In this document: piece after piece, positions 2,508 to 9,756 of the stretch
Layout of the letters: each line of letters opens with the position of its first letter
Numbering within the stretch: the first letter of the stretch is position 1
Source of the DNA: Ignavibacteriota bacterium
Lineage (GTDB): Bacteria; Bacteroidota; Ignavibacteria; UBA10030
Assembly: GCA_003170475.1 (NCBI GenBank)
Contig: PMZI01000052.1
Span: forward strand, 1 to 64,000
DNA length: 64,000 nt
Direction: 5' to 3'
Position numbers and translations under genes: made by a program
The notes under the pieces: generated by a model
What the model saw: the letters and a program-made list of their open reading frames with translations, nothing else
Told to the model about the DNA's origin: nothing
The model's database searches: none

Positions 2508-3545
2508 GTGAGGAGGGAAACCTTCTCTGTTCGCCGGAGGCACACTGCTGAGAATCTTCTGACACCACTGATTCAAGCCAGGTCCTTTACAGCCGTCAAC
2601 TCGGAGACTCCACTGGCTGAGCTTTCACGTCAGCTTCTGGAACATCAGAAACTGACGTGGCCCCAACTGACGACGGGGTACGCTTCGCTGGCAACCGTCC
2701 GTCTGCGCGAAATCCGTTGCCGGGGGTTCTCCGTTTGGCTCCAGTTTAATCCCGGTCGTATCGTGAGCACGGGCGCAAAGGTCGACGCGCAGTCAATCCG
2801 TGAGCGCCGCTGTTTCCTCTGTGTGGAAAACCTTCCCGAGCCGCAGAAGGGAATCGTCTACAAGGATGAGTTTCTCATTCTGTGCAACCCAGCTCCTATT
2901 TTTGCGGAGCACTTCACCATCTCGAATATCCGTCACATACCCCAGGTCCTCGCACCGTACATCCCGACGATGCTGGATCTTGCCCGCGACCTCAGTCCCC
3001 GGCTCACAGTCTTTTACAATGGACCAAAGTGTGGTGCTTCGGCCCCCGACCACATGCACTTCCAGGCAAACCCGACGGGAGTGATTCCCGTCGAACTGTC
3101 TGCAAGGGAAGAATCGCGCCGGATGTTTCGTCGGTCAATCGATTCGGTGGATATCCTGACATTGCAGGACTTCGGGCGTCAGGTCATTGTGCTTGAGTCG
3201 CGTCAGAAAGAGAATCTCGTTACAGTCCTGACCAATCTCACCGAGGCGCTTCGGCAGACCATGGGAGTGAGTGAAGAGCCGATGATGAATGTGTTGTGTT
3301 CCTTTTCGGGGGAGGAGTGGAGAGTGATCCTCTTTCCGCGAAGCAAACACAGGCCCGATGTGTTTTTCAAGGAGGGGGCGGAGCGCATTGTGATCAGTCC
3401 AGCAGCCGTGGACATCGGAGGCCTGATCGTTACACCGCTTGAGAAGGATTTCAAGACAGTTGATGCATCCCGGGTGGAGAGCATTTTTCAGGAAGTGAGC
3501 CTTCCGCCCGCGGATCTTGATAAGACCATCCTGCAGCTTTCATAG
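2508..3545 (+). CDS. DUF4922 protein, GalT/HIT-type nucleotidyltransferase-like
   Basis: A 345-residue protein of the DUF4922 family. It has C102-F-L-C105, placed like the zinc-binding CxxC of galactose-1-phosphate uridylyltransferases. It also has D181-H-M-H-F-Q186, a HIT-superfamily HxHxQ motif that in GalT-like and GDP/ADP-sugar phosphorylases carries the nucleotidylated histidine. Known family chemistry therefore suggests transfer or phosphorolysis of a nucleotide-sugar bond, but I know of no proven reaction for this family. The start is a GTG at 2508; no in-frame ATG exists until far into the fold. It lies 12 bases after the GNAT gene and 14 before spoIID, in the wall-salvage cluster. 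Confidence 0.72.
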   Translation: MRRETFSVRRRHTAENLLTPLIQARSFTAVNSETPLAELSRQLLEHQKLTWPQLTTGYASLATVRLREIRCRGFSVWLQFNPGRIVSTGAKVDAQSIRERRCFLCVENLPEPQKGIVYKDEFLILCNPAPIFAEHFTISNIRHIPQVLAPYIPTMLDLARDLSPRLTVFYNGPKCGASAPDHMHFQANPTGVIPVELSAREESRRMFRRSIDSVDILTLQDFGRQVIVLESRQKENLVTVLTNLTEALRQTMGVSEEPMMNVLCSFSGEEWRVILFPRSKHRPDVFFKEGAERIVISPAAVDIGGLIVTPLEKDFKTVDASRVESIFQEVSLPPADLDKTILQLS

Positions 3546-3559
3546 ATTCTAAAAAAACC

Positions 3560-4894
3560 ATGATTCATCAGGAACCATATGTAAGCGTCGGAGTTGTAGA
3601 ACATGTGCCCGAAATTCAGGGCACCTTCAATGGCCGCTTTGAACTTCCGACCACTGTGCGACTGGAAGGGAAGTTCACCGTCCGCTCACTTGATGGTCGC
3701 TTCGTCCTGTTCGATGATGAAGACATTGAGGTGATGAAGGGTGAAGACATCTGTTGCACAGCGCTCAATCGCGCGACGTTCACGCTGCATGAAGTAACGA
3801 TCGGTATTAACTTTCATTGGGAGCGCAAGGAAGACCAGACGTTCGAGGGAAACCTGCGGTTTGTTGCGGCGCCGGACGGCTCGTTGACGGCGATCAACGA
3901 AATTGGAGTCGAAAACTATCTGAAAAGCGTGATCTCATCGGAGATGAGTGCTGAAGCTCCGCTCGAGTTGCTCCGTGCGCATGCGATCACATCAAGGAGC
4001 TGGCTCGTCGCAATGCTTTACAAACAGATGCAGGCAAGAAACGTTGGTGTACCAACGATCCGATCGCGGGAAACGGAGTCGGAAATCGTCCGATGGTACG
4101 ACAGAGAAGACCACCTGCTGTTTAACGTTTGCGCCGACGACCACTGCCAGAGATATCAGGGCATTTCGAAAATCATTACGGAGAATGCTCAGAAGGCAAT
4201 CGAGGATACGAGGGGTGTCCTGCTCGTTCACGATGACCAGGTTTGCGATGCCCGTTTCTACAAAGCCTGCGGTGGACTCACGGAGGATTTTGAAAACGCC
4301 TGGGAGGACACTGCTATTCCTTACCTGCGGTCTGTCTCGGATGCAGAACAGCCCTATGGCGACAAATCCGCAGAACCTGAAGCGCGCGAGTGGATACTCT
4401 CTTCACCGAAAGCTTATTGTAACACGAACGATGTCGCTATTCTGAAGCAGATTCTTCCCTCGTTCGATCAGGAGACCACGGACTTCTTTCGTTGGCGCGT
4501 GGACTATTCACGCGAAGAACTCGAGCGCATCGTACACAAGAGGTCGGGGATTGACTTTGGAACAATCACGGCACTCCTTCCGTTGCAACGCGGACCATCC
4601 TCAAGGATCACGCGGCTGAAGATTGTCGGGACGAAGAAAACCATGATCGTCGGAAAAGAACTTGAGATCCGCCGTTGGCTCTCGAACAGTCATCTGTACA
4701 GTTCCGCATTTGTCGTGGAGGCGGAACTTGACTCCCGTGGATTGCCAACTCGCTTTACCTTGCATGGAGCAGGGTGGGGGCATGGGGTCGGTCTGTGCCA
4801 AATTGGTGCAGCGGTGATGGCGGCACAGGGAAAGAAAGCAGAAGAGATCGTGCTGCACTATTTTTCGGGTGCCAGCCTGCAGAAACTCTACTAA
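3560..4894 (+). CDS. SpoIID/LytB-domain protein (peptidoglycan lytic enzyme or amidase activator)
   Basis: A 444-residue protein with a complete SpoIID/LytB domain. In Bacillus SpoIID is a lytic transglycosylase that cuts glycan strands lacking stem peptides, and LytB stimulates an amidase. The core is visible as VISSEMSAEAPLELLRAHAI with the likely catalytic Glu at residue 128, then TSRSW, a C-x2-C-like cysteine region (CADDHCQRYQG), and the C-terminal GWGHGVGLCQIGA and HYFSGA motifs. No signal peptide is evident at the chosen ATG, which is unusual for a wall-acting enzyme. The protein may work on imported muropeptides or leave by another route. It is followed directly by the AmpG-like gene. 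Confidence 0.85.
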   Translation: MIHQEPYVSVGVVEHVPEIQGTFNGRFELPTTVRLEGKFTVRSLDGRFVLFDDEDIEVMKGEDICCTALNRATFTLHEVTIGINFHWERKEDQTFEGNLRFVAAPDGSLTAINEIGVENYLKSVISSEMSAEAPLELLRAHAITSRSWLVAMLYKQMQARNVGVPTIRSRETESEIVRWYDREDHLLFNVCADDHCQRYQGISKIITENAQKAIEDTRGVLLVHDDQVCDARFYKACGGLTEDFENAWEDTAIPYLRSVSDAEQPYGDKSAEPEAREWILSSPKAYCNTNDVAILKQILPSFDQETTDFFRWRVDYSREELERIVHKRSGIDFGTITALLPLQRGPSSRITRLKIVGTKKTMIVGKELEIRRWLSNSHLYSSAFVVEAELDSRGLPTRFTLHGAGWGHGVGLCQIGAAVMAAQGKKAEEIVLHYFSGASLQKLY

Positions 4895-4919
4895 ACCTAT
4901 CCTCGAAGAGGAATCCGGT

Positions 4920-6770
4920 ATGGAGAACAACCAGAAGAACTATCGAAACCCCTGGGCGTGGGTCCCAACATTGTATTTTGCGCAGGGGATTCCGTACGTC
5001 GTCGTGATGACGGTGTCCGTCATCATGTACAAACGGCTGGGGATCTCAAATTCCGACATCGCCTTCTACACAAGTTGGTTGTATCTGCCCTGGGTGATCA
5101 AGCCACTGTGGAGTCCTTTCGTCGACATGTTCTCCAAGAAGCGCCTCTGGGTGGTCTCCCTTCAATTTGTGATAGGGCTCGGACTGGCTTCGGTGGCATT
5201 TACTCTTCCGGCGTCAGCGTTCTTCCAATGGAGCATAGCGATGTTCTGGCTGATGGCGTTCGCCTCAGCGACCCATGATATCGCGGCAGATGGTTTCTAT
5301 ATGCTCAGTCTGGAACAACACGAGCAGGCAACGTTTTCCGGCGTTCGCAGTACGTTCTATCGGGTCGCGATGCTGACGGGTCAGGGGCTCCTCGTCATTG
5401 TGGCCGGCACCATTGAGACGAGTTCGAGTCTCCCCACGCACGATGTCACCGTCCAAGCAGTTCGTTCAATCGCAGACACAAGCGTTGCCATGACCGATCT
5501 TGTGGCGGAACCAGGAACTCAGGTTGCAGTGCTTGCGGGTCCTCCCGTCTTGCGAATTCCTTTGATTCCGAGAACCAAGCTTGAAGTGGATTCGGTTGTG
5601 AAGTCGGTTGCATCACGGAACATCGCGAACGCGTTTCGCACGGCAGACGAAAAAATAGAGAGCAGTTGGTGGGATAGAGTGGTGTCCTCGAGGATCAAAC
5701 AATTCATCCGCGATCTCGTCGGCGAACACAGGGGGTCCGATGCCGATGTCGACAAACGCGGAAATGTCGGGCTCGTTCATCTCCGCCTTTCACGTCCGCC
5801 GCTGGATGACAGCCCGGTGGTTGTGGCATTCGAACACAAGTCCGGGGACGCAAGTCTCAAAGTGGTAGAGGGCGACCGATTGACCTTCACACGTGGGAAT
5901 TGGGACAAGGGTGCGCTCATCGTCGTGCAACTTGACAAGAACCTGACCAAGGAGGAATCCGCGGTCTTCGCTGCCAAATCCGGGAATATCCCGTTTGCGT
6001 GGTCCGTGACGTTCAGCGTTCTCGCCGGAATGTTTCTTCTCCTGTTCGCTTATCACAAGCTGATGCTGCCCTATCCCTTGGCGGACAAGCCGACGCGTGC
6101 GGATGCGTCTCAAAGCGTCTGGAAAGAATTCGTTCATACGTTCGCGCTCTTCTTCAACAAGAAGGGGATCATTGCCACACTCGCGTTTCTGCTCTTCTAT
6201 CGATTTGCTGAGGCTCAGCTCGTCAAAATGGTATCCCCCTTTCTCCTCGATCCAAGGGGCAAAGGAGGTTTGGGTCTGACGACAAGCGAAGTCGGAATTG
6301 TCTACGGGACAGTCGGCGTCATTGCACTCTTGCTTGGAGGGCTCCTTGGAGGATATATCGTCTCCAGGAAGGGTCTCAAGTACTGGTTGTGGATCATGGT
6401 ATTTGCTATTCATCTCCCGGATGTCGTGTTTGTGTTTCTGTCGCAAGTTCAACCCGAGAGTCTCCTCCTCATCAACCTCGGTGTTGGTCTGGAGCAATTC
6501 GGCTATGGATTTGGGTTCACGGCGTACATGTTGTACATGATTTCTGTTTCTGAAGGGGACCACAAGACCGCTCACTATGCAATCTGCACGGGCATCATGG
6601 CGCTTGGCATGATGCTGCCAGGAATGTTCAGCGGAGATCTTCAGGAACTGGTTGGATACAAGAACTTCTTCCTCTGGGTCATCCTCGCGACGATTCCCGG
6701 ATTTCTTGTCGCAGCATTTGTGAAGATCGATCCGCTCTTTGCAAAGAAGGTTGTGAAAACTCAGGAATGA
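4920..6770 (+). CDS. AmpG-like MFS transporter with a large soluble insert
   Basis: A 616-residue major-facilitator transporter resembling AmpG, the permease that brings anhydro-muropeptides or related wall sugars into the cytoplasm. The ATG at 4920 follows a GAGGAA site; an earlier in-frame start at 4869 lies inside the spoIID gene and is disfavoured. The N-terminal half has WVPTLYFAQGIPY and YLPWVIKPLWSPFVDMF, typical of AmpG. Between the two membrane halves (about residues 165-355) lies a soluble insert ending in a beta-sandwich-like stretch with LTFTRGNW (about 319-327), reminiscent of Calx-beta or adhesin-type repeats. The second half resumes at about 356. The large insert is the oddity. 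Confidence 0.83.
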   Translation: MENNQKNYRNPWAWVPTLYFAQGIPYVVVMTVSVIMYKRLGISNSDIAFYTSWLYLPWVIKPLWSPFVDMFSKKRLWVVSLQFVIGLGLASVAFTLPASAFFQWSIAMFWLMAFASATHDIAADGFYMLSLEQHEQATFSGVRSTFYRVAMLTGQGLLVIVAGTIETSSSLPTHDVTVQAVRSIADTSVAMTDLVAEPGTQVAVLAGPPVLRIPLIPRTKLEVDSVVKSVASRNIANAFRTADEKIESSWWDRVVSSRIKQFIRDLVGEHRGSDADVDKRGNVGLVHLRLSRPPLDDSPVVVAFEHKSGDASLKVVEGDRLTFTRGNWDKGALIVVQLDKNLTKEESAVFAAKSGNIPFAWSVTFSVLAGMFLLLFAYHKLMLPYPLADKPTRADASQSVWKEFVHTFALFFNKKGIIATLAFLLFYRFAEAQLVKMVSPFLLDPRGKGGLGLTTSEVGIVYGTVGVIALLLGGLLGGYIVSRKGLKYWLWIMVFAIHLPDVVFVFLSQVQPESLLLINLGVGLEQFGYGFGFTAYMLYMISVSEGDHKTAHYAICTGIMALGMMLPGMFSGDLQELVGYKNFFLWVILATIPGFLVAAFVKIDPLFAKKVVKTQE

Positions 6771-6846: not shown

Positions 6847-9756
6847 ATGCAATCCCATTCTCTGCACACACGATGTCTGTTGCTTGCTTGCCTCCGCAGG
6901 GGGGCAAGTTTTCTCCTCCTGAGTCTGACCGTGTCGTTTTCGTCATTTGCCCAGGAAGTCTCCACAATGTTTGTTACCAGCGAAAAGCCTGCCACCTCTG
7001 AGTGGGTCGAATCGACCCTGAAGCGGCTGTCGCTCGAAGAAAAGGTCGCTCAGCTCGTGTTTCCGTCAACACCGGGGACGTATTATGCTCAGGATTCTGA
7101 CCCGTGGCGGGAGCTCGAAAAGTACGTTACCAAGCGAAAAGTGGGGGGCTTGGTTCTCTCCATCGGTGACGTCTACGAGTATGCTCTCATGGTCAACAAA
7201 CTCCAGAAAGCTTCCGACATACCGCTCCTCATTGCTGGTGACTTCGAATACGGAGCTGCAATGCGCGTTCATCGGGCAACCATGTTTCCACGCGCGATGG
7301 CAATCGGTGCGACGAGGAATCCCGGTTACGCTTACGAAGTCGGGCGTGCTACTGCTGACGAAGCCAGGGCGCTGGGGATCCATCAGAATTTTGCTCCGAC
7401 AATCGATGTCAACAACAATCCCAGAAATCCGGTCATCAACACACGGTCCTACGGTGATGATGTCAAACTGGTGACGGAAATGGGGACGGCATTTGTGCGC
7501 GGCACGCAGGAAGGCGGCATGATTGCCACCGTCAAGCATTTCCCCGGGCATGGGGATACGGACGTCGATACACACCTTGGAATGGTAACGCTCAACTACA
7601 GCAAGCAGCATTTTGATTCGATTGAATTCCCCCCCTTCCGGGCTGCGATCAAAGCAGGAGTGAAGTCTGTCATGGTCGGCCACATCGCCTTGCCGGCGTA
7701 TGATACCGGCAAAGGAATCCCTGCCACTGTTTCTCCACGAATCACGACCGATCTTCTGCGCAAAGAGTTTCATTTCGATGGGCTTATCGTCACCGATGCA
7801 ATGCGTATGCGGGGTGTCGCTTCGAAATACAGTTCGGGGGAAGCATCGGTTCTCGCGATCAAGGCCGGAACGGATATTGTCCTGATGCCGTCAGACATCG
7901 ACGTGGCGATCGATGCCATCATCGCTGCCGTAAAACGCGGCGATATTTCCGAGCAGCGCATCGATGCTTCAGTTCGCAGAGTCCTGCAGACGAAACAGGA
8001 TATGAGACTCGACCTGGATAGGATGGTGAATGTCGGGAAGATTTCCAGTGTGGTTTCCACCCGCGGTCACGAAATGCTCGCGATGCAGATAGCACGGAGA
8101 GCCGTAACGGTTCTCGGGAACAAGAGTGAAATCCTTCCTCTTTCTCCTGTGGATACGAAGAAAATTGTCGACATCAACGTTTCAGACACGGAAGATCCCA
8201 AGAACGGTCGATCGTTCCATTCGATGCTGCACGATCGCCGCCTCAACGTCGAGTTCGCGAAAGTCGATCCAAGAAGCGACGATGCCGAATATGACTCCGC
8301 TCTCGAAATGGCAGCGGGCGCGGATGTGATCATTTTTCAACTCAATCTCTCTACCCGCTCCGGTGAGATGACGGGATTCGTTTCGCGGAGACAAAAGGAG
8401 TTCCTGACGCGTGCATGTGCTCTTGGGAAGCCGGTCATCGTGATCTCCTTCGGCAACCCATATGTTATCATGGATCTTCCAAAAGTTGACGCCTACGTCT
8501 GTGCGTACTCCGATGCTGAGGTCATGCAGCAAGCCGTGGCTGAGGTGCTCTTCGCGGAATCTCCCGCGGAAGGGAAACTTCCCATCACCATTCCCGGTGT
8601 GTACAAGTTTGGAGATGGCGTCGCATATCCGAAAACAAGACTGCGAACGGGGATTCCTGAAGAAGTTGGATTCATCAGAGACAGTCTCGATGTTGTCGAC
8701 AAGATCGTGAACCAGGCGATCAAAGACACGTCATTCCCAGGTGCGGTACTTGTCATTGTGAAAGACGGGGTCATCGTTCAAGAGAAAGCATACGGGTCAT
8801 ATGAGTACGAACCGTATTCCAAGAGAGTCGATGTCAACACGATCTTTGATCTTGCATCCGTTACGAAGGTCATCTCCACGACGAGCGCCGTCATGCGGTT
8901 GGTCGGAGAGGGCAAACTGAAACTGGACGATCCGGTGGTCAAGTACTTCCCGAAGTTTGGCCAATTCGGAAAGGAACGCATCACGCTCTACAATCTCATG
9001 GTCCATAACTCGGGTCTGGTGGGCTGGGCCAAGTTCTATGAGTTCTGCAAAACGCCTCAGCAGCTCCTTGACTCGATTTTTGCGACGCATCTCACCTTCA
9101 AAACAGGTGACTCAACAGTGTACAGCGATCTCGGTTTGATCACCACGGGCAAGATCGTCGAAAAAGTCACCGGCACCACTCTTGACAATTATGTCGACTC
9201 GGTGTTCTTCAAGCCGCTGGGAATGACGAGTACGATGTACAACCCTCCCGAACGACTCTGGAATCGCGTCATGCCGACCGAAGTGGACAACTTCTGGAGG
9301 AAGACGGGTACCGCGGTTCGTGGAACAGTACACGATGAAAACGCCTCGATCCTCGGTGGTGTTTCGGGTCATGCTGGACTCTTCTCCACGGCTCCGAATC
9401 TTGCAGTCCTTTTGCAGATGGAGCTGAAGGGCGGCGTCTACGGAGGAAAGAGATTTCTCAAAGAGGATGTTCTTCGGAAGTTCACCACCAGGCAATCACC
9501 GAAGAGCTCTCGCGGGATTGGCTGGGATACGAAGATTTCTCCTCATGGATGGTCGGGCAAGTTGCTTTCGGATAAAACGTGGCTGCACACTGGGTTCACC
9601 GGTACGTCTGTGGTCACTGACCCGACGAGGGAACTCATTGTTGTCTTCCTGACGAACAGAGTCTATCCCACGCGGGACAACCAGAAGATTGGCGCGATCC
9701 GCGCGAAAGTGCATGATGCTATCGTGCGCTCGCTGATGCAAGAGCAAGAGAAGTGA
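6847..9756 (+). CDS. Secreted GH3 beta-N-acetylhexosaminidase (NagZ-like) fused to a beta-lactamase-family serine hydrolase
   Basis: A 969-residue two-domain enzyme. An N-terminal signal peptide ends near residue 36 (FSSFAQ). The GH3 domain shows the NagZ signature KHFPGHGDTDVDTH (residues 230-243), with the His/Asp pair used as acid/base in this family, and the nucleophile Asp317 in VTDAMRM. A GH3 C-terminal domain follows to about residue 600. Residues about 620-969 form a penicillin-binding/beta-lactamase-like hydrolase with S671-V-T-K674, Y759-S-D and H914-T-G. NagZ removes GlcNAc from muropeptides; the second domain could cleave stem peptides or esters. Export contrasts with cytoplasmic E. 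coli NagZ. It ends the salvage cluster. Confidence 0.92.
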   Translation: MQSHSLHTRCLLLACLRRGASFLLLSLTVSFSSFAQEVSTMFVTSEKPATSEWVESTLKRLSLEEKVAQLVFPSTPGTYYAQDSDPWRELEKYVTKRKVGGLVLSIGDVYEYALMVNKLQKASDIPLLIAGDFEYGAAMRVHRATMFPRAMAIGATRNPGYAYEVGRATADEARALGIHQNFAPTIDVNNNPRNPVINTRSYGDDVKLVTEMGTAFVRGTQEGGMIATVKHFPGHGDTDVDTHLGMVTLNYSKQHFDSIEFPPFRAAIKAGVKSVMVGHIALPAYDTGKGIPATVSPRITTDLLRKEFHFDGLIVTDAMRMRGVASKYSSGEASVLAIKAGTDIVLMPSDIDVAIDAIIAAVKRGDISEQRIDASVRRVLQTKQDMRLDLDRMVNVGKISSVVSTRGHEMLAMQIARRAVTVLGNKSEILPLSPVDTKKIVDINVSDTEDPKNGRSFHSMLHDRRLNVEFAKVDPRSDDAEYDSALEMAAGADVIIFQLNLSTRSGEMTGFVSRRQKEFLTRACALGKPVIVISFGNPYVIMDLPKVDAYVCAYSDAEVMQQAVAEVLFAESPAEGKLPITIPGVYKFGDGVAYPKTRLRTGIPEEVGFIRDSLDVVDKIVNQAIKDTSFPGAVLVIVKDGVIVQEKAYGSYEYEPYSKRVDVNTIFDLASVTKVISTTSAVMRLVGEGKLKLDDPVVKYFPKFGQFGKERITLYNLMVHNSGLVGWAKFYEFCKTPQQLLDSIFATHLTFKTGDSTVYSDLGLITTGKIVEKVTGTTLDNYVDSVFFKPLGMTSTMYNPPERLWNRVMPTEVDNFWRKTGTAVRGTVHDENASILGGVSGHAGLFSTAPNLAVLLQMELKGGVYGGKRFLKEDVLRKFTTRQSPKSSRGIGWDTKISPHGWSGKLLSDKTWLHTGFTGTSVVTDPTRELIVVFLTNRVYPTRDNQKIGAIRAKVHDAIVRSLMQEQEK

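Follow-up and report, generated by a model that had tools for sequence, protein, structure and literature searches.

The DUF4922 protein encoded in the window (the whole 64,000-nucleotide stretch of Ignavibacteriota DNA analyzed here) is one of three obligate partners that are inherited together, the others being a GT2 family glycosyltransferase and a SpoIID/LytB family protein. The preferred reading, to which a probability of about 0.55 is given, is that the DUF4922 protein is a HIT-fold enzyme with a zinc site that would transfer a nucleoside monophosphate through His184. Together with a cytoplasmic GT2 and a cytoplasmic SpoIID it would process the GlcNAc-1,6-anhydroMurNAc imported by AmpG, and the three enzymes could replace AnmK. 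Because of the gene context, the question shifts from which nucleotide sugar is used by DUF4922 to the role of the three enzymes in muropeptide recycling.

Motifs and predicted fold of the DUF4922 protein

The open reading frame at 2508-3545 (forward strand) has a GTG start, 345 codons and a stop at 3545, and encodes 345 aa. The start codon is uncertain, since several homologues start approximately 20-35 residues further in. DUF4922 (PF16269, E 1.5e-55, residues 43-187) is the sole Pfam family in the frame, and NCBIfam holds no fitting model for the protein. The initial annotation pointed to C102-x2-C105 and D181-H-M-H-F-Q186, and both motifs are found exactly there. C102-F-L-C105 (2811-2822, forward strand) contains the predicted GalT-type zinc cysteines, based on conservation and on alignment to C52/C55 of E. 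coli GalT. D181-H182-M183-H184-F185-Q186 (3048-3065, forward strand) contains H182, a candidate zinc ligand, and H184, the predicted nucleophile. The invariant H143 (2934-2936, forward strand) is a candidate third zinc ligand by conservation and by its place in an hhalign alignment, three columns from GalT H115.

Conservation was assessed in 32 homologues gathered with the family model alone; the motifs were not used for selection, which makes this an unbiased test. C102, H135, H143, H182, H184 and F185 are invariant in 32/32. C105 is present in 31/32, the exception being CFLS in L065, and Q186 is kept in 29/32, with HFH in L050 and L057 and HFY in L070. Judged from these sequences, the CxxC and HxHxQ motifs are not chance. 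C102, C105, H143, D181, H182 and H184 are also invariant across 71 DUF4922 proteins, a set that comes mostly from named genomes and was partly chosen by a scan with the PDHxHFQ pattern among others. The change from HFQ to HFH in L050 and L057 turns the motif into HxHxH, the motif of Hint-type hydrolases. L070, the second copy in genome G224, is a divergent DUF4922 with CSFC and with HLHFY instead of HxHxQ, and does not adjoin a GT2 gene.

An AlphaFold2 model built on the 71-row alignment has a mean pLDDT of 93.1 and a pTM of 0.91. The top Foldseek match is yeast Ap4A phosphorylase Apa2 (E 2.5e-11); the next ones are, in this order, a DUF4931 protein, a uridylyltransferase and GalT. In VIA-align the match to Apa2 has a Z score of 23.1 over 269 aligned residues at 3.2 A, and the scores are 10.9 for DUF4931, 10.3 for Arabidopsis ADP-glucose phosphorylase and 9.4-9.5 for GalT. 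The HIT fold, whose absence the initial annotation had named as one refuting outcome, is present in the predicted structure. The single DUF4922 sequence finds no relative below E 0.28 among PDB sequences; the family profile finds yeast Apa2 (E 1.1e-5), with DHxHFQ falling on DHKHLQ. The model places DUF4922 in the HIT superfamily, on the branch that holds Apa2, GalT and ADP-glucose phosphorylase. Since the HIT fold is predicted and Apa2 is found by the sequence profile alone, DUF4922 is best read as a nucleotidyl-histidine transferase or phosphorylase.

DUF4922 shares with Apa2 (4i5t, 4i5v, 4i5w) the two-part HIT fold, an aligned DHxHxQ and the sequence-profile match. However, Apa2 has no CxxC at the place aligned to that of DUF4922, and it is a eukaryotic dinucleotide enzyme without a cell-wall link. 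With GalT (1hxq, 5in3, E. coli galT) the shared features are the HIT fold and two aligned motifs, CFLC followed by HxHxQ, although the overall similarity is weak. The hhalign comparison of the DUF4922 profile to E. coli GalT gives E 1.8e-4 with a probability of only 48. In this alignment CFLC falls on C52-F-L-C55 and H182/H184/Q186 fall on H164/H166/Q168, in agreement with the GalT-like order proposed in the initial annotation. The zinc ligands of E. coli GalT are C52, C55, H115 and H164; in the same weak alignment C102, C105 and H182 fall on zinc-ligand columns, and H143 is three columns off H115. DUF4922 thus combines an Apa2-like body with cysteines absent from Apa2, for which a zinc role is predicted by analogy with GalT.

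The initial annotation held that the first His of HxHxQ is nucleotidylated. The Apa2 chain 4i5v, which contains intact Ap4A, has Ala at the second His position of the motif when compared with 4i5t, and GalT H166, the nucleophile of that enzyme, aligns with H184. For these two reasons the second His, H184, is the expected nucleophile of DUF4922, which leaves H182 as the likely zinc ligand. The enzyme class proposed earlier, a nucleotidyltransferase or phosphorylase, stands in outline on the HIT fold and on the profile match to Apa2, but the residue assigned as nucleophile does not.

Gene neighborhood and partner proteins

The genes in the window, all on the forward strand, are in the order BadF-type kinase end, GT2, GNAT, DUF4922, SpoIID, AmpG and a GH3-beta-lactamase fusion. 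Of the first gene (75-515), a BadF-type GlcNAc/MurNAc kinase, the contig start leaves only the C-terminal part; its match to PF01869 (E 1.6e-6) is below cut-off. A full-length relative of this kinase in L071 matches the MurNAc/GlcNAc kinase structure 8zo3 (E 1.9e-38), and for the Bacteroidales kinase of L150 the matching chains bear the names GlcNAc kinase and putative MurNAc kinase (8oqk, 8ow9). The GNAT acetyltransferase (1986-2495, PF00583) adjoins DUF4922, and in some relatives the two are fused; one idea is that it re-acetylates deacetylated wall sugars.

The GT2 glycosyltransferase (512-1984, PF00535), an obligate partner of DUF4922, has two GT-A-like halves. The DSDD (336-339) and ED (424-425) motifs are invariant in 58 sequences. 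The model (pLDDT 92.3) matches K4 chondroitin polymerase with Z 25.9 over both halves at an rmsd of 21.8, which means that the two proteins arrange their halves differently. The second half matches heparosan synthase (Z 23.3) and TarP/TarS (Z 18.6-19.7). These features bear on the main rival to the preferred reading, a forward pathway in which DUF4922 would make a nucleotide sugar by a GalT-like exchange, GT2 would add the sugar to anhMurNAc or to the disaccharide, and SpoIID would use or cleave the product. Forward is the normal direction for GT2 enzymes. It agrees with the intact DSDD and ED motifs, with the resemblance to polymerases that work forward (for example K4 chondroitin polymerase and the GlcNAc-T domain of heparosan synthase) and with the known exchange activity of GalT; fusions of GT2 to DUF4922 would channel in either direction. 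However, a nucleotide sugar would be costly in a salvage pathway, the imported disaccharide already bears GlcNAc, and the context suggests no second sugar. The forward pathway is a possible explanation, but a less likely one.

The SpoIID/LytB family protein (3560-4894, PF08486, TIGR02669), the other obligate partner in the preferred reading, has no signal peptide. The catalytic Glu128 (SSEM) is invariant in 32/32. The profile matches the solved SpoIID 4rwr (E 5.7e-26), with the Glu of SSEM on the SEM of 4rwr. Inspection of the N-termini by eye gave a signal peptide in 0/33 unfused copies, the 34th copy being the DUF4922-SpoIID fusion of L136. The module SpoIID thus resembles the SpoIID lytic transglycosylases (4rwr, 5i1t) in its profile match and aligned SSEM glutamate, but differs from them in lacking the signal peptide, their export feature, and in being encoded with cytoplasmic enzymes. 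Since the catalytic Glu is kept, 4rwr is matched and a signal peptide is absent, a SpoIID of lytic-transglycosylase type appears to work in the cytoplasm. SpoIID enzymes are known to act on polymeric glycan outside the cytoplasm. This known site runs counter to the preferred reading, as does Apa2, the best structural match of DUF4922, which cleaves Ap4A and not a sugar nucleotide.

The AmpG-family muropeptide permease (4869-6770) matches the TIGR00901 subfamily with E 2.5e-53, which is below the cut-off of that model. It has approximately 185 extra residues between homologous halves (the matches break at about 186 and 371). This long form occurs in 13/81 loci and the short form in 23/81. Adjoining AmpG, a single protein (6847-9756, PF00933 and PF00144) joins a GH3 glycosidase to a beta-lactamase-family domain and has a signal-peptide-like N-terminus; it matches the NCBIfam beta-N-acetylhexosaminidase model below cut-off.

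Loci were collected from named genomes of Ignavibacteria, Bacteroidia, Balneolales and Syntrophales (80, or 81 with the window). Near DUF4922 in the 80 loci are GT2 in 71, SpoIID in 36, AmpG in 36, GH3 in 9, GNAT in 8 and ALDH in 2, all of which are lower bounds since many contigs are short. GNAT, GH3 and aldehyde dehydrogenase were rejected as core genes because they occur at few loci. Clustering of the neighbors in the 81 loci gave a BadF kinase (23), NamZ (21), MurQ (15), an M15-type peptidase (11), an AmiA-like amidase (10), a sodium symporter (10), an AmgK-like kinase (5) and a MurU-like transferase (4). Family scans with one representative per cluster confirmed MurQ (TIGR00274 over cut-off), NamZ, AmiA-like, M15_4 and SSF, and the AmgK and MurU representatives matched below the family cut-offs. 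DUF4922 is thus genomically tied to AmpG and to MurNAc enzymes. Among the neighbors that were named, the recurrent ones are muropeptide genes, a point of difference from GalT of the galactose pathway.

In a typical Bacteroides locus (L139) the order is NamZ, symporter, xanthan-lyase-like, phosphoesterase-like, GT2, DUF4922, SpoIID, AmpG, NamZ and, after further genes, a kinase and MurQ. The xanthan-lyase-like and phosphoesterase-like labels were assigned by eye, the former also from the T. forsythia paper. In a Syntrophales locus (L118) AmpG is followed by MurU-like and AmgK-like genes and, further on, by GT2 with DUF4922 and an M15 peptidase. A MurU-like role for DUF4922 was rejected, since Syntrophales already have a MurU-like gene beside the AmgK-like gene and GT2-DUF4922. 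An M15-type peptidase gene lies directly 3' of DUF4922 in six Syntrophales loci (L098, L106, L114, L116, L118, L141).

A comparable locus has been described in Tannerella forsythia. According to PMC5388701, xanthan lyase-gtf-gtf-lytB-ampG-ybbC and then murTKQ form one transcript under the control of GppX, and the operon is called glycosylation-related. This order equals the Bacteroidales order GT2-DUF4922-SpoIID-AmpG-NamZ, so the second gtf (Tanf_08355) is probably DUF4922, by gene order and not by sequence. The description of the operon, together with the resemblance of GT2 to capsule-type polymerases, could indicate that the three enzymes make a surface or protein-linked glycan and that the adjacency of AmpG reflects shared regulation. 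This is very unlikely, since muropeptide enzymes and transporters make up the recurrent neighbors, a signal peptide is absent from the SpoIID copies and AmpG is present in 41/41 DUF4922 genomes.

Co-inheritance and the distribution of AnmK

A sample of 296 genomes of the phylum of the window was searched for DUF4922, GT2 (E 1e-40), SpoIID (E 1e-20), AmpG (E 1e-40) and AnmK (scored as PF03702). Strong DUF4922 hits were found in 41/296 genomes. Three of the original 44 hits were weak and partial (G027, G136 and G160, E 8e-6 to 9e-4) and were left out of all counts; GT2, SpoIID and AmpG are all absent from these three genomes, and AnmK is present. GT2 occurs in 40/41 DUF4922 genomes (the exception is G156) and in 0/255 others. 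The SpoIID paralogue without signal peptide has the same distribution, 40/41 (the exception is G223) versus 0/255. AmpG is present in 41/41 versus 49/255, or 90/296 in total. The three genes are unlinked in some genomes, such as G074, where DUF4922, GT2 and SpoIID are on contigs C6, C1 and C2, and G184, where they are likewise on different contigs or far apart. Therefore, the link between them is more than neighborhood. Among 69 Syntrophia genomes DUF4922 is found in 46 and SpoIID in 50; both occur in 45, SpoIID alone in 5 and DUF4922 alone in 1.

Fused reading frames were checked at 29 loci picked for long frames. The fusions found are GT2-DUF4922, DUF4922-SpoIID (L136, L153, L154, L156) and GNAT-DUF4922 (L079, L082, L159, L163). 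In L152 one frame runs through GT2, DUF4922 and SpoIID and is ended by the contig edge inside SpoIID.

These patterns bear on the possibility that DUF4922 is a housekeeping phosphorylase of NDP-sugars or dinucleotides, like GDP-glucose or Ap4A phosphorylase, and that its neighbors are incidental. Apa2 is the best fold match, and in PMC9871823 and PMC11047344 plant GGP-like proteins are placed in a DUF4922 superfamily. PMC11066809 describes GGP as a HIT member that is without one His and prefers phosphate. The likeness of DUF4922 to the GDP-glucose/GDP-L-galactose phosphorylases (GGP, GDPGP1) comes from this superfamily assignment, and these enzymes belong to a eukaryotic pathway, unlike DUF4922. 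The inheritance locked to GT2 and SpoIID, the fusions and the CxxC that is absent from Apa2 all argue against a housekeeping role, which is improbable.

AnmK is the kinase that opens the anhydro ring with ATP. It is present in 208/296 genomes. In the 90 genomes with AmpG it is found in 18/41 with DUF4922 versus 49/49 without (Fisher 1.3e-10, which ignores relatedness), so that all 23 AmpG-bearing genomes without AnmK carry DUF4922. Counted by family, AnmK is lost in 7/8 families with DUF4922 versus 0/11 families that have AmpG without DUF4922 (p 1.6e-4). In Bacteroidales, scored regardless of AmpG, it is present in 5/30 genomes with DUF4922 versus 84/99 without (p 8.6e-12). The Fisher tests on AnmK ignore phylogeny and the losses are clustered. 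Of the 80 named-locus genomes, 37, all bearing DUF4922, were scored for AnmK, which was found in 11 and in 0/16 of the deltaproteobacterial ones.

A simple replacement of AnmK by the module is weakened by two observations. AnmK is kept in 18/41 DUF4922 genomes, including the genome of the window, which has both (AnmK at G000:C14); therefore, the module is not merely a substitute for AnmK. In Syntrophia AnmK is over cut-off in 0/69 genomes, with or without DUF4922, and this group gives no support for replacement because AnmK is absent there whatever the state of DUF4922. The distribution agrees with a module that renders AnmK dispensable but does not exclude it. The AnmK-NagZ branch and the module have in common the AmpG-imported substrate and the downstream MurQ or AmgK/MurU, but the three enzymes include no kinase, and they are the pattern seen in all 23 genomes that have AmpG without AnmK.

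T. forsythia also provides growth data. According to PMC7670621, it shows AmpG-dependent growth on GlcNAc-anhMurNAc and GlcNAc-MurNAc and restricted, poor growth on anhMurNAc, for which poor import is named by the authors as a possible cause; an AnmK ortholog is not predicted, and the strategy is left to be explored. The disaccharide preference is what a SpoIID and GT2/DUF4922 pathway would show. A search of the open-licence literature found SpoIID, GT2 or DUF4922 linked to anhMurNAc nowhere.

Proposed pathway and its meaning

In the proposed pathway AmpG would import the disaccharide GlcNAc-1,6-anhydroMurNAc. Lytic-transglycosylase chemistry produces 1,6-anhydroMurNAc, and from family chemistry we infer that SpoIID would open the anhydro ring by the reverse of lytic transglycosylation. 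By the same reasoning, GT2 and DUF4922 would move GlcNAc through a nucleotide-sugar intermediate, and the substrate of DUF4922 is most likely a nucleotide sugar. As an example, GT2 might run backwards with UDP, after which DUF4922 would phosphorolyse UDP-GlcNAc to GlcNAc-1-phosphate; the backward direction of GT2 is a guess, and the order of these steps is presumed. Free MurNAc would be delivered to MurK/MurQ or AmgK/MurU. The stricter form of this pathway is a split, nucleotide-sugar-mediated GlcNAc-anhMurNAc phosphorylase, in which a reverse SpoIID reaction would open the anhydro ring, a reverse GT2 reaction would transfer the GlcNAc onto UDP and DUF4922 would free it as GlcNAc-1-phosphate, without AnmK, cytoplasmic NagZ or ATP for ring opening. 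Such a complete scheme is rather unlikely. If it is true, energy-poor anaerobes could recycle the wall disaccharide without ATP for ring opening.

The three-enzyme module, which is tied to AmpG and present in every sampled AmpG-bearing genome without AnmK, would be a new form of peptidoglycan recycling. Its carriers include the common gut genera Bacteroides, Prevotella and Dysgonomonas as well as Ignavibacteria and syntrophic Deltaproteobacteria. If the preferred reading is true, it would provide roles at once for DUF4922, an unnamed GT2 family and a cytoplasmic SpoIID family, and a second way of opening anhydroMurNAc. It would also bear on the uptake and release of host-sensed peptidoglycan fragments by gut anaerobes. 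Many anaerobes could probably use the three enzymes to recycle fragments of the cell wall in the absence of the textbook enzyme for that step.
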